Shown here one piece after another: positions 4,971-18,139 of a stretch of DNA of 32,496 nt. The notes beneath the pieces are model-generated. The model did not search any database. It had not been told where the DNA came from and saw only the letters and a list, made by a program, of their open reading frames with translations. The position numbers were made by a program, and so were the translations under genes. Each line of letters starts with the position of its first letter. Position 1 is the stretch's first letter. Source of the DNA: Salinicola peritrichatus (GTDB lineage: Bacteria > Pseudomonadota > Gammaproteobacteria > Pseudomonadales > Halomonadaceae); contig NZ_PZJU01000075.1 of NCBI RefSeq assembly GCF_003206715.1, forward strand, positions 1 through 32,496. Reading direction: 5' to 3'.

Positions 4971-7085
4971 ATGCCGGTCAGGCGCTACCGCTCTCCTTTC
5001 CCGATCTGCCTGCTGGGCGTCTCGCTGTTGCCCTTGACGGCAGTCGCCCAATCTGCCGACAGCGTCTCTTCCGACAGCAGCAACAACCTGGAAACCGTCA
5101 CCGTGACCGGGCAGTCGGCCGCGACCAAGACCGAGACCCCCTTCGTGGAGACCCCACAATCCATTTCCACGATCAGCCAGGACGAGATCACCGAACAGGG
5201 CTCGAGGACCGTGGAAGAGGCAGCACGCTACACCGCCGGGGTATTCACCAATCAATATGGCGCGACTTCGACACGCTACGATGCGCTCGTACTGCGCGGC
5301 TTCACCTCGGGCAGCATCGACAACACCTATCTCGACGGTCTGAAGCTGCTCAACGACGAGGGCACCTACAGCATCCTGCAGATCGACCCCTATTTCCTGG
5401 AGAACATTCAGGTCGTCAAGGGGCCTTCGTCGGTACTCTATGGCCGCGCCTCTCCTGGTGGCCTGGTCGCGCTGACCAGCAAGCGCCCCCTGTTCACGCC
5501 GTACCATCAGATCCAGGTGAGCGGAGGCACCCAGGGTTATCGCTCGACGGGGTTCGATTTCAGCAACCAGTTGGGTGACTCCGGACGCGTCGCCTATCGC
5601 CTGGTCGGCAAGGCCATGGGCTCGGATTCTCAGTTCGACCGCATTCAGAACGAGCGCTACACGCTGGCGCCGTCATTGACGATCGACATGACCGACGACA
5701 CCTCGCTGACGCTGATGGCTTATCTGCAGCGGGAACCGGAAGGAGGATACTACGGCGGCGTTCCCGCGGACGGCGCGCTTCACGATCACGCCGGTCGCAA
5801 GATTTCCAACTCCTTCTACGATGGCGAACCGGACTACGAGGAATTCAATCGTCGCCAGACCATGCTGGGATACGAACTGACCCACCGTTTCAACGACGTA
5901 TGGTCGGCGAGACAGAACTTCCGCTACGTGAACGCAGCCACCGACTACGGCCAGGTCTATTTCAGCCAGTGGCTCAACGACCGCGAATTCAGTCGCGCCT
6001 ACTTCGGCGCCGACGAGAAGCTCGACGCCTATGCCGTCGACAACCAGCTACAGGCGAATTTCTCTACCGGAACGCTCGACCACACCGTTTTGATGGGCCT
6101 CGATTACCAGCATCGCCAGGTCAAGTCCAAGCAATCCTATGGATCGTTTCCGGCACTCGACGCCTTCGATCCCAGCTACGGTGCCGACGGCACGATCGAT
6201 CCCTATGCCGACGTCAATCGCAAGCTGGAGCAGACCGGTGTCTACCTGCAGGATCAGATCGCACTGGATCGCTGGCGCTTTACCCTTGGCGGGCGGCAGG
6301 ACTGGGTCGATATCGACAACCGGGACACCCTCAACGACACCCACAATACCGGTGATGACACGCAGTTCAGCGGTCGTGCCGGGGTGCTGTATCTGTTCGA
6401 CAACGGTGTCGCGCCCTACCTGAGCTACTCGGAGTCGTTCAACCCCAACAGCAACACCGACGAAAATGGGGACCTGCTCGAGCCGACCGAGGGCAAACAG
6501 TACGAAGCCGGCCTGAAGTACCAGCCGCCGGGCACGGAGGATCAGTACAGCATCGCCGTGTTCCATATCGCGCAGGAGAACGTGGCCAACTACATCCAGG
6601 ATATCCAGAGCTATCGCGCCGTCGGCAAGGTCCGCTCTCGCGGCATCGAGCTCGAGGCACGCCACCACTTCACCGATCAGTTCCGCGTCCAGGCGAGCTA
6701 CACCTACACCGACGTCGAGTACGAGAAATCGGATGCCGGCTACGAAGGCAATACCGTCAACTCGGTTCCGAAGAACATGGCCTCGGTCTGGGGCAACTAC
6801 GCCTTTGACTCCGGACCGCTGCGCGGTCTCGATGTCGGAGCCGGCGTGCGCTACAACGGTGAAAGCTACGTCGACGAAGCCAATACCGACAAGGTGTCCG
6901 ATTACACCCTGGTCGATGCCGCATTGCACTACGATCTTGGCGAACTCGGCCTGACCGGCGTGGAAGCCCGCCTCAACATCAACAATCTGCTCGACAAGGA
7001 CTACGTCGCCTCCTGCTACAGCGCCGCCCGCTGCTACTTCGGCGCTGAACGGAGCGCCATCGCCACACTGAGCTATCAGTTCTAA
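4971..7085 (+). CDS. TonB-dependent siderophore receptor (FoxA/FhuA type)
   Basis: Outer-membrane gated channel that takes up a ferric siderophore using TonB energy. 704 residues, the usual length. A signal peptide is predicted to end after TAVA (about 26). A TonB box ETVTVTG lies at 41-47, followed by a plug domain starting FVETPQSISTISQDEI and containing LRGF and IQVVKGPSSVLYGRASPGGLV, then a beta-barrel ending in aromatic Phe704 (LSYQF). The C-terminal pair in YVASCYSAARCYFGAER is typical of hydroxamate receptors of the FhuA/FoxA group. GGAG at 4961-4964 precedes the ATG by 6 bases. It sits between a PchR-like regulator and the hydroxamate biosynthesis genes, so it most likely takes up the self-made siderophore. 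Function class firm; exact ligand inferred. Confidence 0.93.
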   Translation: MPVRRYRSPFPICLLGVSLLPLTAVAQSADSVSSDSSNNLETVTVTGQSAATKTETPFVETPQSISTISQDEITEQGSRTVEEAARYTAGVFTNQYGATSTRYDALVLRGFTSGSIDNTYLDGLKLLNDEGTYSILQIDPYFLENIQVVKGPSSVLYGRASPGGLVALTSKRPLFTPYHQIQVSGGTQGYRSTGFDFSNQLGDSGRVAYRLVGKAMGSDSQFDRIQNERYTLAPSLTIDMTDDTSLTLMAYLQREPEGGYYGGVPADGALHDHAGRKISNSFYDGEPDYEEFNRRQTMLGYELTHRFNDVWSARQNFRYVNAATDYGQVYFSQWLNDREFSRAYFGADEKLDAYAVDNQLQANFSTGTLDHTVLMGLDYQHRQVKSKQSYGSFPALDAFDPSYGADGTIDPYADVNRKLEQTGVYLQDQIALDRWRFTLGGRQDWVDIDNRDTLNDTHNTGDDTQFSGRAGVLYLFDNGVAPYLSYSESFNPNSNTDENGDLLEPTEGKQYEAGLKYQPPGTEDQYSIAVFHIAQENVANYIQDIQSYRAVGKVRSRGIELEARHHFTDQFRVQASYTYTDVEYEKSDAGYEGNTVNSVPKNMASVWGNYAFDSGPLRGLDVGAGVRYNGESYVDEANTDKVSDYTLVDAALHYDLGELGLTGVEARLNINNLLDKDYVASCYSAARCYFGAERSAIATLSYQF

Positions 7086-7120: not shown

Positions 7121-7489
7121 GCTCCCCTCGCCGAGCGCTATCTCCTTTCCAAGCACCAAAACGCCATCTCTCTCATTATCTGGCCAGTCCGGGGCAATGT
7201 GTCCCAATCCTCCCGACCCACGTTTTCGCCACCAATATTTATTTTTTGCAACAAGATGTTATTTCGATTCAGAAATTTCCGGTCGATTCGTCTACCTGTT
7301 GGTAGCATCAAAAAATTAACGCTTTTCATTCTCATGTAGAGACGTCAATGCATTGGCCCGGGTACAGGGACGCGCCCGTGTCGCTCGAGATTCACCACGC
7401 CATGAGTTTTCAACGCGTGTCATGTGCACGCAGGAGCGCTTTTGTCTCGAAAAAGCGCGGATAGACACGACACATCAGGAGGATACGTC
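7121..7489 (+). promoter_or_regulatory. Long upstream region of the siderophore operon
   Basis: About 370 bp with no convincing gene. Positions 7220-7330 are visibly richer in A and T than the flanks. CTACC-TGTT-GGTAG is a perfect inverted repeat at 7292-7305, followed by CATCAAAAAATTAAC. ATTCTCAT at 7328-7335 matches eight bases of the Fur-like cores found before the receptor and the sigma factor. A promoter for the biosynthesis genes is expected here, with Fur and possibly the AraC regulator acting on it; the transcript would have a leader of up to about 150 nt. Individual promoter boxes are not clear. Confidence 0.45.
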
Positions 7490-9061
7490 ATGCGCTACGA
7501 TACGGAGTTCGCCCCCGCCATCCGGCCAATCGCGGCCTCGACCGACGACGCCGGAGAGAACCTGCTGACCCTGTTCGGCGATCACTCGCTGGACGCCTAC
7601 CGCCACGGCATGCAGCGCTGTGTCGAGCTGGTCGGGCGCACGCTGAGCCACAATCGCCGCCCTTTCAGCGGCGTCGAGCCGCAGGAACTGCAACCCGAAC
7701 TGGAAGCGATCGACCTCGACCGCCCGCTGGAGAGCCTCGAAGCCAGCCTGGAGGAGATCCAGCGGCTCTATCTCGACCACGCCGTGCACTTCCACGACCC
7801 GCGCTACGTGGCCCATCTCAACTGCCCGATCACGCTGCCCTCGGTATTGGCGGAAGCGATCGCGACCCCGCTCAACACCGCGGTGGAGACCTGGGACCAG
7901 AGCGCCGGCGCCACCCTCATCGAGCAGAAACTGATCGACTGGACCAGCGCCCGCATCGGCCTGGGCGACGACGCCGATGGCGTCTTCACCAGCGGCGGCA
8001 CCCAGTCCAACCTGATGGCACTGATGATCGCCCGCGACAACGCCTGCGCGGCCATGCCGGGCCACGCCGGCAATCGCCACCACGGCCTGCCGCAGGGGTA
8101 CCGTGCCCTGCGCATCCTGACCTCCGAGATCAGCCACTTCAGCGTGCAGAAGGCCGCCGCCCTGCTCGGGCTCGGCTACGACGCGGTGATCCCGGTGCCC
8201 TGCGGAGACGACAAGCGCATGGACATCGCCGCCCTCGCCGCGATCCTCGAAGACTGCGACGCCCAGGGACTCCAGCCGTTCGCCGTGGTCGCCACCGCCG
8301 GCACCACCGACTTCGGCAGCATCGACCCGATTCCGCGTATCTCGACGATCTGCCGCCAACGGGGCCTGTGGCTGCATGTCGATGCCGCCTACGGCGGCGG
8401 ACTGCTGCTCTCGACCCGCTATCGCCACTGGCTCGCCGGCATCGAGCAGGCCGACTCGGTCACCATCGACTACCACAAGACCTTCTTCCAGCCGGTGAGC
8501 TGCAGTGCCTGCCTGGTGCGGAAGCGCCACCAACTACGCCATGCCACCTACCACGCGGACTATCTCAACCCGCGCGACCAGGCCGAGGAAGGCACCCCGG
8601 ACCTGGTCAACAAGAGCCTGCAGACGACACGCCGCTTCGATGCGCTGAAGCTGTGGATGACGTTGCGCACCCTGGGCGCGGAACGCCTGGGCGGCTACCT
8701 CGAGACGGTGATCGGGCTCGCCCGCGCCATCCATCGCCAGTTGCAGCACCGCGACGACTTCGAGGTGCTGATGGCGCCGGCGCTGAGCACGCTGGTCTTC
8801 CGCTACCGCCCCAGCCACGTCGATGAAGACGCCGACATCGAAGCGATCAACCGTCATGTCCGCCAGACCCTTTCGCGTCGCGGCGAAGCGGCCGTCGCCG
8901 CCACCCGGGTCGAGGGCCGCCTCTACCTCAAGTTCACGCTGCTCAATCCACACACGCGGCTAGAGGATCTCGAATCGCTGGTCGAGCGTATCGTCGCCCA
9001 CGGCAAGGATGCCGCCGGCGCGCCGAACGTGCCGCCAGCCGTCGTCGCCAGCGGCAGTTGA
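7490..9061 (+). CDS. dfoJ: PLP-dependent diamine-forming decarboxylase (DfoJ/DesA-like)
   Basis: Group II pyridoxal-phosphate decarboxylase of 523 residues, the first enzyme of the siderophore pathway. Homologues decarboxylate lysine (DesA/DfoJ, giving cadaverine), ornithine or 2,4-diaminobutyrate; sequence alone does not settle which. Visible motifs: TSGGTQSNLMA (cofactor phosphate), HVDAAYGGG near 296-304 (Asp on the PLP nitrogen) and SVTIDYHKTFFQP, in which Lys330 should form the Schiff base. The start at 7490 is chosen because AGGAGG lies seven bases upstream (7477-7482); a longer frame from 7424 exists but has no such site. The N-hydroxylase follows after 59 bp and the synthetase after that, giving the order decarboxylase, hydroxylase, synthetase of desferrioxamine loci. 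In that context cadaverine or putrescine is the likely product. Confidence 0.88.
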   Translation: MRYDTEFAPAIRPIAASTDDAGENLLTLFGDHSLDAYRHGMQRCVELVGRTLSHNRRPFSGVEPQELQPELEAIDLDRPLESLEASLEEIQRLYLDHAVHFHDPRYVAHLNCPITLPSVLAEAIATPLNTAVETWDQSAGATLIEQKLIDWTSARIGLGDDADGVFTSGGTQSNLMALMIARDNACAAMPGHAGNRHHGLPQGYRALRILTSEISHFSVQKAAALLGLGYDAVIPVPCGDDKRMDIAALAAILEDCDAQGLQPFAVVATAGTTDFGSIDPIPRISTICRQRGLWLHVDAAYGGGLLLSTRYRHWLAGIEQADSVTIDYHKTFFQPVSCSACLVRKRHQLRHATYHADYLNPRDQAEEGTPDLVNKSLQTTRRFDALKLWMTLRTLGAERLGGYLETVIGLARAIHRQLQHRDDFEVLMAPALSTLVFRYRPSHVDEDADIEAINRHVRQTLSRRGEAAVAATRVEGRLYLKFTLLNPHTRLEDLESLVERIVAHGKDAAGAPNVPPAVVASGS

Positions 9062-9120
9062 CGCTTGGCCGCCGCATCGTTCGTGACGTTTCCATTCATC
9101 GCCCCCACGGGATTTTCATC

Positions 9121-10443
9121 ATGCCGAGCAAGATTCACGATTTCATCGCCATCGGACTGGGGCCGTTCAATCTCGGTCTCGCCTGCCTCACCGACCCGAT
9201 CGACGACCTCGACGGCCTGTTCCTCGAGCGTCGGCCGGGCTTCGACTGGCATCCGGGACTGCTGCTCGAGGACGCTTCCCTGCAGACGCCCTTCATGGCC
9301 GACCTGGTGACGCTGGCCGACCCCACCAGCCGCTTCAGCTTCCTCAACTACCTCAAGACCCAGGGCCGACTCTACAACTTCTACATCCGCGAGAACTTCT
9401 TCCTGCTGCGCAACGAGTACAACCGCTACTGCCAATGGGTGACCACCCAACTCGACTCGCTGCGCTTCGACTGCGACGTCGAAAGCATCACCTTCGATGA
9501 CGAGACGCGCTGCTATCGGGTTCACTGCCGCGACACACGCAGTGGCGAGAAGCACATCCGGCGCGCACGCAGGCTGGTGCTGGGAACCGGAAGCGAGCAG
9601 CTGATCCCCGACTGCTGCCGCCCACTGGCCGAACGGATCGTGCACTCGTCGCACTACCTCGACCACAAGGCCGCGCTGCAGGCGAAGTCGTCGATCACCC
9701 TCGTCGGCAGCGGCCAGAGCGCGGCGGAGATCTACCTTGATCTGCTCGAGGGCATCGACGAACACGGTTACACCTTGAATTGGGTCACCCGCTCGCCGCG
9801 TTTCTTCCCGCTGGAATACGGCAAACTGACGCTGGAAATGACCTCGCCGGACTACATCGACTACTTCCATGCCCTGCCGGAGTCGACCCGCGACCGGTTG
9901 ATGCGCGAACAGAAGGGACTCTACAAAGGGATCAATCTCGATCTGATCAATGCGATCTACGACCGCCTCTATGCCAAGTCGCTAGACGGTCCGGTGGATA
10001 CGCACCTGCTCACCTGCGCGGCGCTAGAAAGTAGCCGCTTCGACCCGGCCAGCCGGCAGTTCGAACTGACCTTCACCCACACCGAACAGGCACGCCGGTT
10101 CCATCACCGGACCGAGGGCCTGATTCTCGCCACCGGCTACGCTCCACGCCGGCCGGATTTCCTCGCTCCGATCGAGAGCCGCATTCGTCGCGATCGCGCC
10201 GGCCGCTACGACGTCGGCCGCTTCTACGACGTCGACGACCATGGCGAGATCTTCGTGCAGAACGCGGAGCTGCATACCCACGGCCTGGTCGCGCCCGACC
10301 TCGGCATGGCCTGCTACCGCAACGCCTGCATCATCCGCGCGCTGGCCGGGCGCGAGGTCTACCCGGTGGAGCGCAGCTTCACCTTCCAGGACTTCGGCGC
10401 ACCGGACGATGCCGTGTTCCAGCCGCAGCGCGCTACCGCTTGA
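9121..10443 (+). CDS. dfoA: Diamine N-monooxygenase (DfoA/AlcA/IucD-like)
   Basis: FAD- and NADPH-dependent N-hydroxylase of 440 residues that converts the terminal amine of a diamine to a hydroxylamine, the future hydroxamate group. The FAD site is FIAIGLGPFNLGLA (about 7-20), the NADPH site is VGSGQSAAEIYLDLL (about 195-209), and the C-terminal family signature is LILATGYAPRRPDFL. The ATG at 9121 is preferred, giving MPSKIHDFIAIGLG, the normal family start; the frame is open upstream to a TTG at 9058 that would add 21 atypical residues. The ribosome site is weak (CGGGA at 9107-9111). It lies between the decarboxylase and the fused synthetase, which points to a free diamine rather than the amino acid lysine as substrate. 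Family firm, substrate inferred. Confidence 0.9.
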   Translation: MPSKIHDFIAIGLGPFNLGLACLTDPIDDLDGLFLERRPGFDWHPGLLLEDASLQTPFMADLVTLADPTSRFSFLNYLKTQGRLYNFYIRENFFLLRNEYNRYCQWVTTQLDSLRFDCDVESITFDDETRCYRVHCRDTRSGEKHIRRARRLVLGTGSEQLIPDCCRPLAERIVHSSHYLDHKAALQAKSSITLVGSGQSAAEIYLDLLEGIDEHGYTLNWVTRSPRFFPLEYGKLTLEMTSPDYIDYFHALPESTRDRLMREQKGLYKGINLDLINAIYDRLYAKSLDGPVDTHLLTCAALESSRFDPASRQFELTFTHTEQARRFHHRTEGLILATGYAPRRPDFLAPIESRIRRDRAGRYDVGRFYDVDDHGEIFVQNAELHTHGLVAPDLGMACYRNACIIRALAGREVYPVERSFTFQDFGAPDDAVFQPQRATA

Positions 10444-10489: not shown

Positions 10490-12979
10490 ATGAATCAGCC
10501 CCAATCCCGGCTGCCCGCCACCACCGCCAGCAGCCTCTACGCCAACGACATCCGCTTCCGCCGCGATTGGCCCGATATCGGTACCCTGGCCCTGCGCCCG
10601 CTGGCGCTCGAACGCGACCTTGCCACCGTCCACGACTGGGTCAGCCGCGACTACGCCAGGTTCTGGGGGATGAACGGCGACAGCCGCGACCAGGTCGAGA
10701 CGTTCTACCGCGACATGCAGCAGAGCGATACCGCTCAGGCCTACCTGGGCCTGCACGACGGACGCCCGGCCTTCCTGGTCGAGTGCTACGCGCCCGAGTT
10801 CGACCCGGTCGGCGAGCACTACGCCGTACAGCCCGGCGATCGCGGCATGCACTTTCTGATCGCGCCGCTCGGCACCACTTCCCCGAAACCGATCCACGGC
10901 TTCAGCCAGGCGGTCATCGACACCATCGTGGCCTTTCTGTTCAGCGATCCGGCGACCCAGCGCATCGTGGTCGAGCCGGACGTCACCAACACCAGGATCC
11001 ACCCGCTCAACCGCCGCGCCGGTTTCGTCTACGAGCGCGAGATCCAGCTCGCCGAGAAGACCGCGCACCTGGCGTTCCTCACCCGGGAGGCACATCTCGG
11101 CAACGCCACGCCGCACGCCGGCGACGCCTCCGCGCACCTGCAGCCCTCGCGCTGGCACCGCGCCAACCGTGACCTGCTCGCCAAGGCAATCGCCGAATTC
11201 ACTCATGAGCGCCTGCTGCGGCCCGAGCGGACAGCCGCGCCGGCTTCCGCAGGTGCAGGCCAGGCCGGCCGGGAAGGGTTCGACGAATACCGCCTGGCCA
11301 GCACGGACGGCAGCACCGTGTACCGCTTCCGGGCACGGGTGATGGCGCTCGACCACTGGTGGATCGACAAGGTATCGCTGGTCAAGACCCGGGGCGGCGA
11401 GGCGTGCCCGCTGGACATCGCCGCCTTCCTGCTCGAGTTCCGCGAGCGGCTGGGCATCGCTGCCGACAACCTGCCGACCTACCTGGAGGAGATCTCCAGC
11501 ACGCTGGCGGGCATGGCCTACAAGCTCGGCCGCGAGTTGCCCGACGCTTCACGACTGGCGCTGGCCGACTTCCAGACCCTGGAAGTGGCGATGAGCGAGG
11601 GACACCCCTGCTTCGTCGCCAACAGCGGCCGGATCGGCTTCGATGTCGAGGACTACCACCGCTACGCCCCGGAAGCCGGCGCCCGGGTCCGCCCGCTGTG
11701 GCTGGCCGCCGCCCGCGCCTGCACCGACTACAGCGCCATCGACGGGCTCGACATCGAGACGCTGATGAACGACGAGTTGGACGCCTCGACGCGGCAACGC
11801 TTCGCCGCACGGCTGCGCGAGCTCGAACTCGACCCTATCGATTACGTCTACATGCCCGTGCATCCCTGGCAGTGGCGACACAAGCTGGCGATCACCTTCG
11901 CCGGCGAGGTCGCCGAACGCCGCTTGGTCCTGCTCGGCGAGGGCGATGACGACTACCGCCCGCAGCAGTCGATCCGCACCTGGTTCAACGTCTCCCAGCC
12001 CCAGCGCCGCTATGTCAAGTTCGCGCTGTCGATTCTCAACATGGGCTTCATGCGTGGGCTGTCGCTGCACTACATGCACGGCACCCCGGCGATCAACGCC
12101 TGGGTCGAAAACGTGGTGGCGAGCGACCCCGAACTGCAGGCACAGGGCTTCAGCGTGCTGCGAGAAGTCGCCACCCTGGGCTACCACCACGCCCACTTCG
12201 AGGCCGCCACCGACAAGCAGAGCCCCTATCAGAAGATGCTGGCCTGCCTGTGGCGGGAAAGCCCCTACACCCGTATCGCCCCCAATCGCCGGCTGATGAC
12301 CATGGCGGCATTACTCCACCGGGACGCTGACGACCGCCCCCTGCTGCCGGCGCTCATCGCGGCCTCCGGCATCGGTGCCCGCGCCTGGGTCGACCGTTAC
12401 CTGACGGCCTACATGACGCCGTTGCTGCACTGCTTCTACGCCCACGACATGGTGTTCATGCCGCATGGCGAAAACCTGATCCTGCAACTGGAGAACCACG
12501 TGCCGGTCGGCGCTATCCTCAAGGACATCGGCGAGGAGACGGGGATCTTCGACAACGGCCAGTCGCTGCCGGAAGCGGCGCGGCGCATCGCCGTCGAAGT
12601 CCCCGAAGCGCTCAAGATCCTGTCGATCCTGACCGATCTGTTCGACTGCTTCTTCCGCTTCCTGGCGCCGATCCTGGTCGAGGCCGGGCTGCTGTCGGAG
12701 CGGGATTTCTGGGAGCGGGTCGCCGCCTGCATCGGCGACTACCAGCGTCGACACCCCGAGCTGGCCGACAAGTTCGCACGTTTCGACCTGTTCGCGCCGA
12801 GGTTCCAGCTTTCGTGTCTCAATCGCCTGCAGTTGCGCAACAACCGGCAGATGATCGATCTCGCCGATCCGGCCAAGAACCTGCAGTTCGCAGGTGATCT
12901 GATCAACCCGATCGCTGAGTTCCGGACATCGAAGCCGACCAAGGAGGCCAGGTCCGAGGCGGCAAGCACGCTGAAGTAG
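10490..12979 (+). CDS. dfoC: Fused acyltransferase-NIS synthetase (DfoC-like)
   Basis: Bifunctional enzyme of 829 residues that acylates the hydroxylated diamine and condenses the units with ATP. The N-terminal part (about 20-205) is an AlcB/DesC-type GNAT acyltransferase, seen in RRDWPDIGTLALRPL and IHPLNRRAGFVYE near 169. After a linker rich in Ala and Gly (about 240-262) comes an IucA/IucC-type synthetase of the DesD/AlcC class: SEGHPC near 368, MPVHPWQWRHK near 457, NMGFMRGLSLHYMHG near 516, HGENLILQLE near 658 and LQFAGDLINPI near the end. AAGGAGA lies just before the ATG. Fusion of these two activities is the hallmark of DfoC in Erwinia and Pantoea desferrioxamine loci; in Streptomyces they are separate genes. 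The product is probably a succinyl-linked hydroxamate such as a ferrioxamine, bisucaberin or putrebactin; which one depends on the diamine. Confidence 0.9.
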   Translation: MNQPQSRLPATTASSLYANDIRFRRDWPDIGTLALRPLALERDLATVHDWVSRDYARFWGMNGDSRDQVETFYRDMQQSDTAQAYLGLHDGRPAFLVECYAPEFDPVGEHYAVQPGDRGMHFLIAPLGTTSPKPIHGFSQAVIDTIVAFLFSDPATQRIVVEPDVTNTRIHPLNRRAGFVYEREIQLAEKTAHLAFLTREAHLGNATPHAGDASAHLQPSRWHRANRDLLAKAIAEFTHERLLRPERTAAPASAGAGQAGREGFDEYRLASTDGSTVYRFRARVMALDHWWIDKVSLVKTRGGEACPLDIAAFLLEFRERLGIAADNLPTYLEEISSTLAGMAYKLGRELPDASRLALADFQTLEVAMSEGHPCFVANSGRIGFDVEDYHRYAPEAGARVRPLWLAAARACTDYSAIDGLDIETLMNDELDASTRQRFAARLRELELDPIDYVYMPVHPWQWRHKLAITFAGEVAERRLVLLGEGDDDYRPQQSIRTWFNVSQPQRRYVKFALSILNMGFMRGLSLHYMHGTPAINAWVENVVASDPELQAQGFSVLREVATLGYHHAHFEAATDKQSPYQKMLACLWRESPYTRIAPNRRLMTMAALLHRDADDRPLLPALIAASGIGARAWVDRYLTAYMTPLLHCFYAHDMVFMPHGENLILQLENHVPVGAILKDIGEETGIFDNGQSLPEAARRIAVEVPEALKILSILTDLFDCFFRFLAPILVEAGLLSERDFWERVAACIGDYQRRHPELADKFARFDLFAPRFQLSCLNRLQLRNNRQMIDLADPAKNLQFAGDLINPIAEFRTSKPTKEARSEAASTLK

Positions 12980-12991
12980 ACACGCATTAAC

Positions 12992-13023
12992 GTCGGGGAT
13001 ACATCGCCACACGTTTCCCCGAC
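12992..13023 (+). terminator. Hairpin after the synthetase gene
   Basis: GTCGGGGA (12992-12999) pairs perfectly with TCCCCGAC (13016-13023), an 8-bp stem with a 16-nt loop, 12 bp after the synthetase stop. No U-tract follows, and the right arm ends just before the sigma-factor promoter. Likely a weak terminator or boundary between the two transcription units. Confidence 0.5.
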
Positions 13024-13029
13024 TCACTC

Positions 13030-13054
13030 TATACTGTTAATGATTCTCATTTTT
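13030..13054 (+). promoter_or_regulatory. Fur box over the sigma-factor promoter
   Basis: GTTAATGATTCTCATTTTT (13036-13054) matches 14 of 19 positions of the Fur consensus GATAATGATAATCATTATC. It directly follows TATACT (13030-13035), a plausible -10 box, so Fur would block this promoter when iron is sufficient. This is one of the two clearest Fur sites in the window. Confidence 0.75.
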
Positions 13055-13093
13055 GCCATGATCGCGACTCCTTAGCCAGATGCCGTCGCGATC

Positions 13094-13597
13094 ATGCGCG
13101 AATCCCTCTTCGATGACCTCTATCGCCAGTATCAGCCCGAGCTGTTGGGGTTTCTCAGCCGCCAGCTCGGCTGCCGCGAACTGGCCGCCGATCTATGCCA
13201 CGAGGTTTATCTGCGTCTGTTCAACGCACCTCGGAAAAGCGAGCCCGACAACCCTCGCGCCTACCTGTTTCGCATCGCTCGCAATCTACTGATCGACCAG
13301 CGTCGCCGCCAGGCCCCGGAATTGATCGCCATCGAGACCCTGGAACCGATGCTGGCCTGCCCACGTGCCTGTCCGGAGACCGCGATCTGCGACCAGCAGT
13401 GCGCGCATCGACTCGGCGAGACGCTGTCCCGGCTGCCCGAGCGCCTGCGTCGGGCACTGGTCTGGCATCGACTGGAAGGACTCACCCAGCGCGAGATCGG
13501 CGAACGCCTCGGCGTCTCCGAGCGCATGGCGGGGCGCTATATCGCCCAGGCGGTGACACGATGCCAGGCCGAGCTGGATGCCATGGAGCCGGCATGA
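13094..13597 (+). CDS. ECF sigma factor, FecI-like, with a cysteine cluster
   Basis: Extracytoplasmic-function sigma factor of 167 residues that would direct RNA polymerase to iron-uptake promoters. Region 2 spans about 5-75 (FDDLYRQYQPELLGFLSR, ending NLLIDQRRR) and region 4 about 108-160 (LSRLPERLRRALVWHRLEGL, then TQREIGERLGVSERMAGRYI). FecI-type factors usually have a membrane anti-sigma FecR next door, but the following gene is an unrelated acetyltransferase on the other strand, so this one is an orphan. The linker between regions 2 and 4 holds four cysteines, Cys89, Cys93, Cys99 and Cys103 (C-x3-C-x5-C-x3-C), followed by His105; this could bind a metal or sense redox state. A Fur box precedes the gene. 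The ribosome site is weak and the start is chosen from the family N-terminus. Confidence 0.88.
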   Translation: MRESLFDDLYRQYQPELLGFLSRQLGCRELAADLCHEVYLRLFNAPRKSEPDNPRAYLFRIARNLLIDQRRRQAPELIAIETLEPMLACPRACPETAICDQQCAHRLGETLSRLPERLRRALVWHRLEGLTQREIGERLGVSERMAGRYIAQAVTRCQAELDAMEPA

Positions 13598-13603
13598 ACG
13601 CGA

Positions 13604-14032
13604 TCAGAGTGGAGCGGGTTTTGGATACCACGCCATGCCGATGGCATAAGGGGCGGTGGGCGCGAACCCGAACTGGGCGTAAAGCCGATGCGCTTCACCG
13701 TCGGCGAGCAAGCTGACCAATGCGTTGTCCGGCGCTTCGCGCAGGAGGTAGTCGCGGATCTCGCGCATGATCCGTTTGCCCAGGCCGCGTCCCTGATATG
13801 CCGGTTTCACCGCGATGTCGACGACTTGGTAGAAACAGCCGCCATCGCCGACGACCCGACCCATGCCCACGCTCTCGCCGTCGTGGATTACCTGTACCGC
13901 GAACAGGCTGTTGGGCAGTGCACGGGCGGCACCGGCGACACTGCGGCTATGCATGCCGGCCTCCCGCCGCAGGGCCATGTAGGTATCGATATCGGGCGGT
14001 TCGAAGATCAGCGTGTAGGGATCGTCATTCAT
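13604..14032 (-). CDS. GNAT-family N-acetyltransferase
   Basis: Small cytoplasmic acetyl-CoA-dependent N-acetyltransferase of 142 residues, nearly a bare GNAT domain. The acetyl-CoA pyrophosphate loop is YQGRGLGKRIM (79-89) after the beta-strand VVDIAVKP; the C-terminal part LYAQFGFAPTAPYAIGMAW is typical of the fold. The substrate cannot be told. Its start overlaps the end of the upstream membrane-protein gene by 8 bp, so the two are translated from one message. Its end faces the sigma-factor gene with only 6 bp between the two stops. It lies inside the siderophore locus, but the acylation step of that pathway is already covered by the fused synthetase. Confidence 0.85.
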   Translation of the reverse strand: MNDDPYTLIFEPPDIDTYMALRREAGMHSRSVAGAARALPNSLFAVQVIHDGESVGMGRVVGDGGCFYQVVDIAVKPAYQGRGLGKRIMREIRDYLLREAPDNALVSLLADGEAHRLYAQFGFAPTAPYAIGMAWYPKPAPL

Positions 14033-15266
14033 GTCGGCTTGTCGGTTCGGCGGCGGAAGAAGCGACCATCATGCCACTGCTTGCCATGTCGCCGCTCCCC
14101 GCCCGCTGTCTTGCGGCCAGCCAGCGCGGCATCCTCGATGTCACTTTCAACAGTGGCACGAGCAGCCACAGCAGCGGCGCGACGATCCAGCGATAGACGA
14201 ACCGGGCCACGATCAACAGCGGCAGCAGCACCAGCGTCCAGATCAGGAACTGCCCCAGCCATACCGGCCAACCGAGCCATTCGGCGATGTTGGCGCCCAG
14301 GGCGCTGACGAGACTCGGATGGCGCGCCACCACGTAGGCGGTGCCGGCAATCGCGGTCACCTTGGCCGCGCGGGACAGGTTGGCAAAACGGCCGCCGCCA
14401 GCCAGTGCGCCACGCCCGGCGCTCCGCGCGCCCTGTCCCTCGACGGCGACGCCCGCGCGAATGCCACGGCCGGCGCGCAGCACCTTGACGGCGCTGGTCA
14501 TCACCAGCAGGTCGACGCCGGCCCAGCCGATATCGGCAACGCCAATCGGTTCGCCGCGTCGCCACTGGCGCTCCAGGTCGCGCATGCCGCTGGTGAAGAA
14601 GTCGCCGATGTCGCTGACGAGCCGTTCGCTCTGCAGCCACTGCACCTGACCATCGCCATCGACAACGAACTGATCGAGAAAGTCGTGGCCTTCCCTCTGC
14701 AGAATGGCGATGGCGATTTGACCACGGCGTTCGGGCGTCAACGTCGCCGGTTCGACTTCGGTGCCCTCGGTAACCTTTGCCCCGGCGTCATCGGGCTCGC
14801 TCCGCGGCGCCTCCGAGGAGGCTTTACCCTCGTCGTCGCCCCACCAGCGGTCGAGCTGCTCGCTCGCCTGGCGGTAGCGCTCACCCAGCCAATGCCGGGC
14901 GCGCAACGTGGCGATATCGTGGTCGCGGTAGTAGACCACCGGCAACACCGCATCCGCGCCGAAGCGTGCCAGCACCTGCTGGAAAGCGGGATCGAAGCCG
15001 TAATCGATAAGCGCTTCGCGGGCCAGATCGCCGTGATTGAGAATCGCCAGCCGTGCGTTCATCCAGAGCCTTGGATCGTCGGCGTAGCCAAGAAACACGG
15101 CATTGATCGCGGGCGACTCCTCGGCCAGCGCGTCCGCCAGCGACGGCAGTACGCGTTGCGTTTCCAGCTTTACCAGCCGCGGCGCGAAGGGCTCGTGGGA
15201 GGCAACGGCGGCGAGTACGCCGGCGGCGGCCAACGCCACGATCAGGATCGACAACCAGACTTTCAT
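14025..15266 (-). CDS. Membrane protein of unknown function
   Basis: I do not recognise this 413-residue protein. It starts with a signal anchor (MKVWLSILIVALAAAGVLAAV, about 4-21). A periplasm-sized segment follows, rich in charged residues, with an acidic low-complexity stretch near 145-175 (EGKASSEAPRSEPDDAG). An Ala/Gly-rich part near 260-310 (GRGIRAGVAVEGQGARSAGRG) comes next. Two or more hydrophobic helices follow near 320-375 (GWPVWLGQFLIWTLVLLPLLIVA and IVAPLLWLLVPLL), and the tail is basic. It is upstream of and overlaps the GNAT gene by 8 bp, and is divergent from the ABC ATPase gene with about 170 bp between starts. Location in or at the inner membrane is confident; no enzymatic motif is visible. 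Confidence 0.75.
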   Translation of the reverse strand: MKVWLSILIVALAAAGVLAAVASHEPFAPRLVKLETQRVLPSLADALAEESPAINAVFLGYADDPRLWMNARLAILNHGDLAREALIDYGFDPAFQQVLARFGADAVLPVVYYRDHDIATLRARHWLGERYRQASEQLDRWWGDDEGKASSEAPRSEPDDAGAKVTEGTEVEPATLTPERRGQIAIAILQREGHDFLDQFVVDGDGQVQWLQSERLVSDIGDFFTSGMRDLERQWRRGEPIGVADIGWAGVDLLVMTSAVKVLRAGRGIRAGVAVEGQGARSAGRGALAGGGRFANLSRAAKVTAIAGTAYVVARHPSLVSALGANIAEWLGWPVWLGQFLIWTLVLLPLLIVARFVYRWIVAPLLWLLVPLLKVTSRMPRWLAARQRAGSGDMASSGMMVASSAAEPTSRHE

Positions 15267-15435
15267 GCGTTTCCCGCTCCGTTGCGCTGTTGAGGCCTGA
15301 TGCTGCCGAACGCGAGCCCGGCGAGACTGGTGTAATCGATAAAAGCCGACAACTGCCTTTGATAACCGTTCGTATTTGAATTAGGATGGCTGTCCATCTT
15401 GCGTGTCCTTCATTCGTTGCGAGGTTGCCCCGGCT

Positions 15436-16203
15436 ATGTTCGAAGTCCAATCGGCGAGCTTCGAGATCGCGGGCCAGACACTACTCTCCCCCATCGATTT
15501 CACCTTCGGTGAAGGCCGGATCTACGGCCTGATCGGACACAACGGTTCCGGCAAGTCTACGCTGTTGAAGCTGCTCGCCCAGCAGCAGCCGGTCAGTCAC
15601 GGCAGCATCCGGCTCGACGGTCGCCCATTGGAACAGTGGAAACCGCGCGAGTTCGCCCGCCACGTCGCCTATCTGCCGCAGCATTTGCCCAGCGCCGAAA
15701 ACCTCACCTGCCGCGAGCTGATCGGTTTCGGCCGCTATCCGTGGCACGGCCTGCTGGGCCGGCTCAATCGCCACGATCACCAGCAGATCGAGCGCGCCAT
15801 CGCCCTGACCCATACCGAAGCCTTCGCCGACCGCCTGGTCGATACGCTTTCCGGTGGCGAGCGCCAGCGGGTGTGGCTGGCCATGCTGCTGGCCCAGGGC
15901 AGCCGCTATCTGCTGCTGGACGAACCGTTGGCGGCGCTGGATATCGCCCATCAGGTGGAAGTCCTCGCGCTGGTACGCAAACTCTGCCACGAGCTGGGTC
16001 TCGGCGTGATCATCGTGCTGCACGATGTCAATATGGCTGCCCGTTACTGCGACCATCTGGTCGCGCTGCACAGCGGCAGACTGCTCGCCGAAGGTCCGCC
16101 CGCCAGCATGATGAGCGATACCACGCTGGAAGCCATCTACGGTATCCCCATGCGGGTCATGAACCATCCCGCCGACGAGTGCCCCATCGCCGTGCTGCAG
16201 TGA
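15436..16203 (+). CDS. Iron-siderophore ABC importer ATPase (FhuC/FecE-like)
   Basis: Cytoplasmic ATPase subunit of a FecCD-type iron-siderophore importer, 255 residues from the ATG at 15436. An in-frame ATG at 15403 would add 11 residues but has no visible ribosome site, while GAGG lies before 15436. The Walker A site is GHNGSGKS (34-41), the ABC signature is LSGGERQR (about 139), Walker B is YLLLDEPLAALD (about 157-168), and the switch His is in IIVLHDVNMAARYCDH. The last is characteristic of FhuC/FecE/BtuD ATPases. No permease or binding protein lies beside it; the matching FhuD- and FhuB-like genes start about 7.7 kb further right. It probably powers that importer. Confidence 0.92.
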   Translation: MFEVQSASFEIAGQTLLSPIDFTFGEGRIYGLIGHNGSGKSTLLKLLAQQQPVSHGSIRLDGRPLEQWKPREFARHVAYLPQHLPSAENLTCRELIGFGRYPWHGLLGRLNRHDHQQIERAIALTHTEAFADRLVDTLSGGERQRVWLAMLLAQGSRYLLLDEPLAALDIAHQVEVLALVRKLCHELGLGVIIVLHDVNMAARYCDHLVALHSGRLLAEGPPASMMSDTTLEAIYGIPMRVMNHPADECPIAVLQ

Positions 16204-16366: not shown

Positions 16367-18139
16367 ATGCTGCAACCCGTTTCCCGCCAGAGTGATCTGA
16401 CCCTCGAATCCGAACAGACGCCGCCACGCCCGGCGGACGTCAGCACCTTCGCGCCCCTGGGGGTGCCCGCCTTCCGCATGATCTGGATTGCCAACCTGTT
16501 CGCCAACCTCGGCGTATGGGCGCAGTCGGTCGCGGCGGCCTGGGTGGTGACCTCGAACGACGGCGGCGCGGTGCTGGTGGCGATGATCCAGGTCGCCGCC
16601 GCCCTGCCGCTGGTGCTGATGTCGATCGTCACCGGCGTCATCGCGGACAACTACGATCGGCGCAAGGTGATGCTGTTCGGCTTGAGCATCGAAGTTCTGG
16701 GCGGCGCCTTCATCACCCTGGTGGCGTTCTTGAATCTGCTCAGCCCGCTCCTGCTGATCGCTTCGATATTCTGCGTGTCCATCGGCGCCGCGATCACCAC
16801 CCCGGCATGGCAGGCGGCGGTCAACGAACAGGTGCCGCGCAACCTGGTCAGCAGCGCGGTACTGCTCAACAGCGTCAACTACAACGCCGCTCGCGCCATC
16901 GGCCCGGCGATCGGCGGCCTGCTGCTCGCCGCCGTCGGCCCGGCATGGATCTTCCTGCTCAACGTGATCTGTTTCTGCGGCCTGATCACGGCATTGTGGC
17001 GTTGGCGCCGGGCGGTACTGCCGAAATCGCTGCCGCCGGAGCGAATCTGGGAAGGCGTCAAGGCGGCGCTGCATTTCGTGCAGTATTCCAGCGTGACCCG
17101 ACTGGTGATGCTGCGCTCGTTCATCTTCGGCATCTCCGCCAGCGCCATCTGGGCACTGCTGCCGCTGCTGGCACACCAGCATCCCAGCGGTAGCGCCTCG
17201 CTCTACGGCTACATGCTCGGCGGCCTGGGAATCGGCGCCATCGCCGGCAGTACGCTGGTCAATCGCGCTCGCCAGCGACTCGGCAGCAGCCGCCTGATCA
17301 GCATCGCCGCCATGGTGCTGGGGCTGGTGATGCTGACGCTCGGCGGGCTCGACACGCTGTGGATGCTGTTTCCGGCATTGATCATCGGCGGTAGCTGCTG
17401 GATCGCCGCCGTGGCGTCCTACAACTCCTCGGTGCAGATCCTGGTGCCGGACTGGGTCAAGGCGCGCGCCCTGGCGCTCTATCAGACGGCGCTCTATGCC
17501 GGCCTGACGCTGGGCTCGCTGCTGTGGGGTCAGTTGGCCGACGGCCTCGGCGTGCAGATGGCGCTGCTGCTCGCCGGCGCCCTGCTGCTCGTCTCCGCGC
17601 TGCTGCTGTTGCCGTCCAGGCTGCCGGACCTGGACGCCAGCGGCCTGGTGGAAGCGCCCGAGGCGCACACCGAAAACCCCGACTTCGATTTCGACCCGGC
17701 GCGCGGCTCGGTCATGGTGACCATCGAATACCGCATCGACACCGAGCATCTGCGGGAATTCGCCCGCGCCGTGCGCCCGTTGCGCAAGCTGCGCCTGCGC
17801 AACGGCGCCAAGCGCTGGTCGCTCTACCGCGACGTGGTCGATCGCGAGCTGTGGCAGGAAGTCTTCCTCGTGCCCAACTGGCTGCAGCACTTGCGCATGC
17901 TCGACCGCCTGACCCTGGCCGACCGCGCGATCATCGACCGGGTGACCGCGCTGCACGGCGGAACCGAACCGCCACGCGTCCGCCATGGTGTCAGCTATCG
18001 CTCCTCGCGCCATGCCCAGCCCGCGCTGATCCCCAACCAGACCGAGCCGCCGGCGGAAACACCGCCGCCGGCTCGTTCCCTCGATTCCAAGGCTTCCAGT
18101 CTCGACCTGAACCATCGCCGTGCCAAGGAGAACCCATGA
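16367..18139 (+). CDS. EntS-type MFS exporter with C-terminal ABM-like domain
   Basis: Inner-membrane major-facilitator transporter of 590 residues, probably a siderophore exporter like EntS or DfoS. The 12-helix transporter part covers about 30-425. It carries the loop-2 motif DNYDRRKVMLFGL, and the ARAIGPAIGGLLLAAVGPAWIF and VLLNSVNYNAARAIGP segments typical of the DHA3/MFS_3 group. After about residue 445 comes a soluble cytoplasmic domain (VMVTIEYRIDTEHLREFARAV to HGVSYRSSRHAQPAL, about 447-545). It resembles the dimeric alpha-beta barrel of antibiotic-biosynthesis-monooxygenase proteins, a fusion known in some MFS_3 members. A proline-rich tail follows. The stop codon overlaps the RecQ start (ATGA), so the two genes are translationally coupled. 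Substrate is inferred from the neighbouring pathway. Confidence 0.85.
   Translation: MLQPVSRQSDLTLESEQTPPRPADVSTFAPLGVPAFRMIWIANLFANLGVWAQSVAAAWVVTSNDGGAVLVAMIQVAAALPLVLMSIVTGVIADNYDRRKVMLFGLSIEVLGGAFITLVAFLNLLSPLLLIASIFCVSIGAAITTPAWQAAVNEQVPRNLVSSAVLLNSVNYNAARAIGPAIGGLLLAAVGPAWIFLLNVICFCGLITALWRWRRAVLPKSLPPERIWEGVKAALHFVQYSSVTRLVMLRSFIFGISASAIWALLPLLAHQHPSGSASLYGYMLGGLGIGAIAGSTLVNRARQRLGSSRLISIAAMVLGLVMLTLGGLDTLWMLFPALIIGGSCWIAAVASYNSSVQILVPDWVKARALALYQTALYAGLTLGSLLWGQLADGLGVQMALLLAGALLLVSALLLLPSRLPDLDASGLVEAPEAHTENPDFDFDPARGSVMVTIEYRIDTEHLREFARAVRPLRKLRLRNGAKRWSLYRDVVDRELWQEVFLVPNWLQHLRMLDRLTLADRAIIDRVTALHGGTEPPRVRHGVSYRSSRHAQPALIPNQTEPPAETPPPARSLDSKASSLDLNHRRAKENP

Follow-up and report, generated by a model that had tools for sequence, protein, structure and literature searches.

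A FecI-like sigma factor encoded in Salinicola peritrichatus raises the question of how such a factor is controlled when FecR, the anti-sigma partner of its type, is not encoded beside it. A sequence-only reading of the stretch of DNA analysed here (32,496 nucleotides, hereafter the window) had proposed that four cysteines of the protein might themselves sense iron, an iron-sulfur cluster, zinc or redox state, an interpretation that our analysis partly supports. The gene and its cysteine codons are located as follows.

13094..13597, + strand: FecI-like ECF sigma factor, 167 aa (open reading frame; Pfam Sigma70_r2 and r4_2; TIGR02937)
13358..13402, + strand: codon stretch of linker Cys89/Cys93/Cys99/Cys103, C-x3-C-x5-C-x3-C (sequence and conservation)

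Both regions of a FecI-type ECF factor are present, region 2 (PF04542) at residues 9-74 and region 4 (PF08281) at residues 106-157. In NCBIfam the protein scores above the cut-off for the ECF superfamily TIGR02937, and the FecI models match below their own cut-offs. The sequence and the Pfam boundaries confirm that the four cysteines, with codons starting at 13358, 13370, 13388 and 13400, sit between regions 2 and 4 in the spacing first reported. Their placement in a joining loop is correct as far as the inter-domain linker is concerned, but has to be amended for two of them. In an AlphaFold2 model (mean pLDDT 78, built on a 22-row alignment) residues 75-89 have no confident structure (pLDDT < 50) and a helix is predicted at 96-113, so that Cys99 and Cys103 would form the head of a helix rather than a loop, with Cys89 and Cys93 in the coil before it. 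No confident metal-site fold appears in the modelled linker (pLDDT < 50), and for that reason the model was dropped as a guide to metal-site geometry. Among solved structures, the closest are those of distant ECF factors (best E-value = 1.6e-11).

The setting of the gene points to siderophore production. The features concerned are:

4971..7085, + strand: TonB-dependent receptor lacking the STN signalling domain (Plug and barrel match above cut-off)
7424..9061, + strand: PLP-dependent decarboxylase, DesA/DfoJ-like, of the siderophore pathway, with a likely start near 7490 (PF00282; synteny)
9058..10443, + strand: lysine/ornithine N-monooxygenase (PF13434)
10490..12979, + strand: GNAT acyltransferase fused to an IucA/IucC-type NIS siderophore synthetase (PF13523, PF04183, PF06276)
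15403..16203, + strand: ABC transporter ATPase of the siderophore locus (PF00005; a neighbour in many relatives)
16367..18139, + strand: MFS_3 exporter of the siderophore locus (PF05977; a neighbour in most Salinicola loci)

The decarboxylase, the N-monooxygenase and the GNAT-IucA/IucC fusion (its open reading frame as listed starts at 10241; the start near 10490 was counted by hand) lie upstream of the sigma gene on the same strand, and the gene that follows it (13604-14032) encodes a GNAT protein on the opposite strand. A 413-residue protein is encoded further on, at 14025-15266 of the minus strand; it has no Pfam match at E 1e-5, and its homologues lie beside the locus in the fetched Salinicola loci. 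The neighbour map across relatives, which covered homologues of the proteins of the S. peritrichatus stretch, shows the order decarboxylase-monooxygenase-synthetase-sigma to be kept in the mapped Halomonadaceae orphan loci, the stretch fetched for one of them (L075) not showing the decarboxylase. The 48 distinct Halomonadaceae orthologues share one conserved siderophore locus. A cluster with the same kinds of genes, a sigma-70 family factor among them, is described for a Halomonas strain that reportedly produces desferrioxamine E (PMC10291192), and the product of the S. peritrichatus locus is presumably a siderophore of the desferrioxamine E type. The receptor of the window has no STN domain at E-values up to 0.01, nor has any of the five orphan-locus receptors tested; in seven further ones, read by eye, the signal peptide leads directly into the TonB-box region. 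An STN domain is present in both Alcanivoracaceae receptors tested.

The partners of a FecI-type factor were detected neither in the window nor in the rest of the genome. The absence of an adjacent FecR gene was confirmed, and a search of the entire 4.62-Mb assembly, whose completeness is rated at 100%, gave no match to FecR (PF04773); the possibility of a FecR encoded elsewhere was therefore rejected. An STN receptor elsewhere was rejected likewise, the sole STN match of the genome lying within a secretin, so that neither the receptor at 4971-7085 nor any other TonB receptor supplies this domain. Seven proteins with sigma region 2 are encoded in the genome; apart from the factor studied here they were read by eye as RpoD, RpoS, RpoH, FliA, an RpoE/AlgU-like factor and another ECF factor. 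In the family, 86 of 275 genomes have a FecR match, and FecR was undetected in 40 of the 49 genomes carrying an orthologue of the sigma factor (E < 1e-35; overlap compared by eye; G008 and G015 covered by short loci only). The nine carriers with a match are G049, G052, G079, G102, G173, G193, G234, G239 and G272, and in two of them (G173 and G079) FecR adjoins a different sigma gene. A profile built up from the FecR of Alloalcanivorax found no FecR within 6 kb of the orphan sigma genes. A class-level sample (369 genomes, E 1e-27) yielded matches in S. peritrichatus and one Kushneria genome only. An order-level sample (390 genomes, E 1e-25) yielded 13 genomes outside the family, in all of which FecR adjoins the sigma gene or is fused to it, though in L113 it lies on the other strand only. 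No independent orphan case outside Halomonadaceae was found in these two samples. As judged from gene content, the description of the factor as an orphan without FecR is supported.

Is the cysteine cluster a lasting property of these orphans? We compared 73 distinct sequences: the 48 Halomonadaceae orphans, 24 sequences with FecR adjacent or fused, and L113, a paralogue from the order-level family f21 with two linker cysteines, which a same-strand rule labels FecR-less, yet a FecR frame lies 115 bp away on its other strand, and which was left out of the 48. Linker cysteines were counted as any cysteine within residues 74-111, and conservation was judged among related sequences. Cys89, Cys93, Cys99 and Cys103 are invariant in all 15 Salinicola/Kushneria sequences, both TGC and TGT being used at each position; as 13 of the 38 linker columns are invariant in these rows, the chance that all four cysteines are among them is p ~0.01, a figure that ignores relatedness. 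His105, put forward earlier as an accompanying residue, varies in the same 15 rows (11 histidines, three arginines, one glutamine), and was rejected as a conserved fifth ligand. Among the 48 orphans, 24 rows have four linker cysteines, nine have three, six have five, six have one and three have none; at least three are thus found in 39 of the 48. The FecR-linked rows have none (20 rows) or one (four rows). Expressed as content, cysteine makes up 159 of 1840 linker residues in the orphans vs 4 of 906 in the FecR-linked rows, and 1.7-2.5% in orphan and FecR-linked rows alike over two stretches outside the linker. Two other cysteines, Cys35 (45/48 orphans, 7/24 FecR-linked rows) and Cys157 (46/48 and 24/24), also occur in FecR-linked rows and are therefore not special to the orphans.

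Position by position, the orphans have cysteine at residue 86 in 20 rows, at 89 in 38, at 93 in 35, at 99 in 17 and at 103 in 33, and the 24 FecR-linked rows have none at 86, 89, 99 or 103 and a single one at 93. No orphan row has both Cys86 (20 rows) and Cys99 (17 rows), and 11 have neither. The commonest combinations at the five positions are 89/93/99/103 (15 rows), 86/89/93/103 (12), none (six), 86/89/103 (five) and 93 only (four), the rest being smaller. Residue 103 is a histidine in L076, which is cysteine-rich, and in the cysteine-poor L014 and L084. The Cys86/Cys99 exchange and the histidine of L076 form the pattern that a ligand set with movable members would leave. The linker cysteines therefore look to be under constraint and to accompany the absence of cell-surface signalling, so far as alignments can tell. 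The expectation that homologues keep the cluster holds, however, only in part, since nine FecR-less rows have at most one linker cysteine: L059, L062, L063, L064, L066 and L069 of one genus, and L014, L082 and L084 of Modicisalibacter type. No FecR lies within 6 kb of these nine, and their genomes (G016-G021; G145, G150, G155) are absent from the FecR matches of the family. All nine retain the siderophore locus, which means that the linker cluster is not indispensable and favours a tuning role for it.

A tree of the 73 rows places the nine nearest FecR-linked sequences (seven from Alcanivoracaceae and two from family f21, at a guess Pseudomonadaceae) inside a 57-row orphan clade, beside Chromohalobacter and Modicisalibacter. 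In a second tree, from which six long-branch rows had been removed, the 48 orphans fall on one side of a branch whose support (56/86) is not firm. With the same six rows removed, a single clade of cysteine-rich rows is weakly rejected (p-AU 0.048), and losses of the cysteines must therefore be assumed. One loss of FecR, one gain of the cysteines and at least two losses of them would fit these data, the direction not being proven. The loss of FecR was perhaps one event, which leaves few independent replicates for its link with the cysteines. In four Alloalcanivorax relatives (L017-L020) a hydrophobic stretch connects the sigma factor to a FecR domain within a single fusion protein (L017, 5965-7143); the fusion adjoins an STN receptor related to that of S. 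peritrichatus, and the receptor of an unfused Alcanivoracaceae relative also has an STN domain. The best explanation would include that the orphan factor either arose from FecI-type factors under FecR control, which apparently recognise the same promoter, or has an ancestor in common with them.

Alignment of the sequences upstream of the decarboxylase gene gave a conserved block TTCAGAA-N14-CGTC, preceded by GG in most relatives (GA in S. peritrichatus) and followed by T.

7268..7293, + strand: predicted target promoter of the sigma factor, -35 TTCAGAA, 14-nt spacer, -10 CGTCT (sole exact match in the genome; also kept before the operon in relatives)

The best match to TTCAGAA-N14-CGTC was exact in 38 of 47 upstream regions, had one mismatch in six and two mismatches in three. 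These regions comprise 41 from orphan loci (the subset fetched far enough upstream), of which 32 match exactly, and six from FecR-linked Alcanivoracaceae, all exact. The four cysteine-poor orphan loci examined (L142-L145) also have the motif, three exactly and one with one mismatch. On the same 47 regions the reversed motif and the motif with swapped halves always had at least two mismatches, and a permuted-letter control reached one mismatch in two regions. Varying the spacer gave one mismatch in one region at 13 nucleotides, never fewer than two mismatches at 15, an exact match in one region and one mismatch in nine at 11, and one mismatch in 29 regions at 17; we read the matches at 11 and 17 as arising because a shift by three leaves the true -35 in place while letters can be drawn from the TTCGTCTTC run. 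The motif stands before the receptor gene in receptor-first loci and before the decarboxylase gene otherwise, and in the FecR-linked Alcanivoracaceae it stands before the STN receptor gene. Two FecR-linked sigma loci from family f21 genomes have the same motif (L105 at 7456, L106 at 5013); both matches are exact, are unplaced relative to the receptor start and lie outside the 47. In the S. peritrichatus genome the exact match including the final T occurs at 7268-7293 only. Allowing up to one mismatch gives six matches vs ten for the reversed control; only the exact match is therefore meaningful, and a wider regulon is not claimed. From this co-conservation we infer that the sigma factor reads the promoter at 7268-7293. 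The same promoter precedes the siderophore operon here and the receptor gene of relatives, which suggests that the target stayed and the signal input changed.

The sigma gene itself appears to be under Fur.

13036..13054, + strand: Fur-box-like site GTTAATGATTCTCATTTTT upstream of the sigma gene (14 of 19 positions agree with the consensus, counted by hand)

An overlapping 19-base register at 13030 agrees equally well (14/19), and none of 100 mononucleotide shuffles did as well; the Fur-box-like sequence spans 13030-13054, the register at 13036 being the one shared by relatives. This register lies 40-58 bases before the start codon, directly after a -10-like TATACT (13030-13035), and a consensus scan of 12960-13110 found neither a sigma-70 promoter nor a terminator. 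The site is kept in all 13 Salinicola rows and in a number of Halomonas-type rows. None was found within 200 bp in Kushneria (two rows), Chromohalobacter, Modicisalibacter, Vreelandella-type rows, L060, L085 and some others. The iron role proposed earlier is supported by this Fur-like site together with the siderophore locus and the conserved target promoter. In the same upstream region the two Kushneria loci (L011 and L086) have a perfect palindrome, CCGGATAACCAC...GTGGTTATCCGG, which might be a different operator or form a hairpin. The gap between the synthetase and sigma genes of S. peritrichatus has a predicted hairpin without a T run (GTCGGGGA...TCCCCGAC, 12992-13023), and in several Salinicola the same gap has predicted hairpins of different sequence (no shuffle control).

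Taken together, we hold with moderate confidence that this is a siderophore sigma factor which Fur represses and which carries an iron brake of its own, the linker cysteines, in place of FecR, in the manner of OrbS though at a different place in the protein and by a putative binding of metal. The factor would be a dedicated activator of the desferrioxamine-type siderophore operon. When iron falls, Fur would release the sigma gene, and the sigma factor would bind RNA polymerase and open TTCAGAA-N14-CGTC before the decarboxylase operon (or the receptor-decarboxylase operon); the sigma gene directly follows the operon on the same strand, so that read-through, if it occurs, could raise the sigma level. 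Once iron in the cytoplasm is restored, the linker cysteines may hold Fe(II) or a different metal signal; the linker would then fold up, and the sigma factor would no longer seat on core RNA polymerase. The linker of ECF factors runs through RNA polymerase, and a metal-folded linker might not follow this path. Fur would thus set the amount of the sigma factor and the linker cysteines its activity. Metal binding, the identity of the metal and inhibition over activation are all presumptive parts of this scheme.

Control by the amount of sigma factor alone would dispense with such a brake: Fur would do all the regulation, and the cysteines would be non-sensory, for instance holding a structural metal or being a habit of the clade. 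The Fur-box-like site in the Salinicola and some Halomonas-type rows is what this explanation expects, the nine cysteine-poor orphans manage without a cluster, and AcsS is described as responding to iron at the transcript level (PMC3329529). Yet the cysteines are conserved at positions that apparently compensate for each other. In several lineages that have the cysteines, the 200 bp scanned contain no Fur-box-like site, and there control could rest with the protein itself; we consider Fur alone unlikely. A different signal is conceivable. Cys-Pro motifs are linked to heme regulation, and Cys89-Pro90 and Cys93-Pro94 could be motifs of this kind, or the cluster could hold an Fe-S centre, the protein then reading heme or Fe-S status and not free Fe(II). 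In the orphans, Cys89 is followed by proline in 36 of the 38 rows that have it and Cys93 in all 35, but FecR-linked rows have Pro94 (16/24) and Pro90 (8/24) without the cysteine, so that the prolines may be older than the cysteines, and no conserved histidine partner stands at 105. A heme or Fe-S reading is accordingly rather improbable.

Sets of four cysteines are also typical of zinc and redox switches, and the cluster might bind zinc or form disulfides and report zinc or oxidative state, iron control being left to Fur; as siderophore iron uptake is what the identified neighbours and the predicted target promoter point to, we give this a shade less credit still. An unrecognised anti-sigma protein, encoded elsewhere and binding the cysteine linker, has in its favour that the genome-wide searches covered FecR (PF04773) and STN only, and that the neighbour map, limited to homologues of the window's proteins, would miss other partners. 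The GNAT gene after the sigma gene is on the opposite strand, so no partner follows in an operon, and we regard this possibility as very remote. The on-board iron brake thus remains the reading that we prefer.

We propose more tentatively, with doubt slightly outweighing belief, that these orphans are a second class of siderophore sigma factors able to regulate themselves, evolved independently of the first, in which cell-surface signalling (FecR and the receptor STN domain) was replaced by a metal-sensing cysteine cluster in the linker while the promoter stayed the same, the ligand positions drifting (86 or 99) between genera and the device being lost at least twice. If so, a sigma factor has been rewired from an outside signal, the ferric siderophore, to an inside one, cytoplasmic iron, with its promoter unchanged, and an iron sensor can reside in the linker of an ECF factor. 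Environmental relatives offer cysteine-rich, cysteine-poor and FecR-fused versions with one promoter motif, which makes side-by-side tests easy, and for desferrioxamine-type siderophore production in Halomonadaceae the locus provides a promoter and a regulator that can be tested.

Several known systems resemble the S. peritrichatus factor in part. AcsS, a FecI-like factor that Pseudomonas syringae encodes among siderophore biosynthesis genes, is described as up in low iron (PMC3329529); the likeness covers the FecI-like type, the siderophore-cluster setting and the low-iron response. CorE and CorE2 (ECF238), to which the cysteines had first been compared, are parallels in being sigma factors under direct metal control through cysteines, metal binding by the S. 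peritrichatus factor being presumed. They are activated and not inhibited by copper or cadmium/zinc through a C-terminal cysteine domain (PMC9023288), and no such domain is present in the S. peritrichatus protein. IutY of Pseudomonas putida is a sigma/anti-sigma hybrid (PMC5411451), a build shared by the Alloalcanivorax relatives; the S. peritrichatus protein ends at 167 aa, without an anti-sigma part. With the FecI/FoxI type it shares the sequence family, and its nearest FecR-linked relatives have the same promoter motif before a related TonB receptor gene. Where that type has FecR and an STN receptor, neither was found here, the predicted target is biosynthesis and the linker is cysteine-rich. 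FoxI, for which PMC5411451 gives a ferrioxamine role, is likened here by description and not by sequence. We found no FecI-type factor with a linker cysteine cluster in the literature searched, which included few subscription journals.

A closer parallel than CorE is OrbS of Burkholderia cenocepacia, which, with MbaS and PhmS, is a sigma factor for siderophore biosynthesis with a Fur box, a four-cysteine cluster and no known anti-sigma factor. According to PMC9023288, Fe(II) inhibits OrbS through a C-x2-C-x3-C-x5-C cluster, binding to core RNA polymerase being lost, and no anti-sigma factor is involved. The S. peritrichatus factor similarly has no FecR, the one anti-sigma family searched, and it has a Fur-box-like site judged by consensus and a siderophore target presumed from the motif. 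The OrbS spacing corresponds to positions 86, 89, 93 and 99 of the Halomonadaceae proteins, which may be a coincidence, all four being cysteine in none of the 48 rows. With OrbS as a precedent for on-board Fe(II) sensing, the idea is less new than the sequence-only reading supposed. The two factors differ in the site of the cluster, as compared by published description: the cysteines of OrbS are found at the end of region 4.2 and past it (same source, which assigns OrbS to ECF243 with PvdS), whereas the S. peritrichatus protein has one cysteine past residue 150, Cys157, the only one past region 4.2, and instead of a C-terminal cluster has its own in the sigma2-sigma4 linker. OrbS also differs in its grouping, since the closest relatives found for the S. 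peritrichatus factor beyond Halomonadaceae are factors of FecI type linked to FecR.
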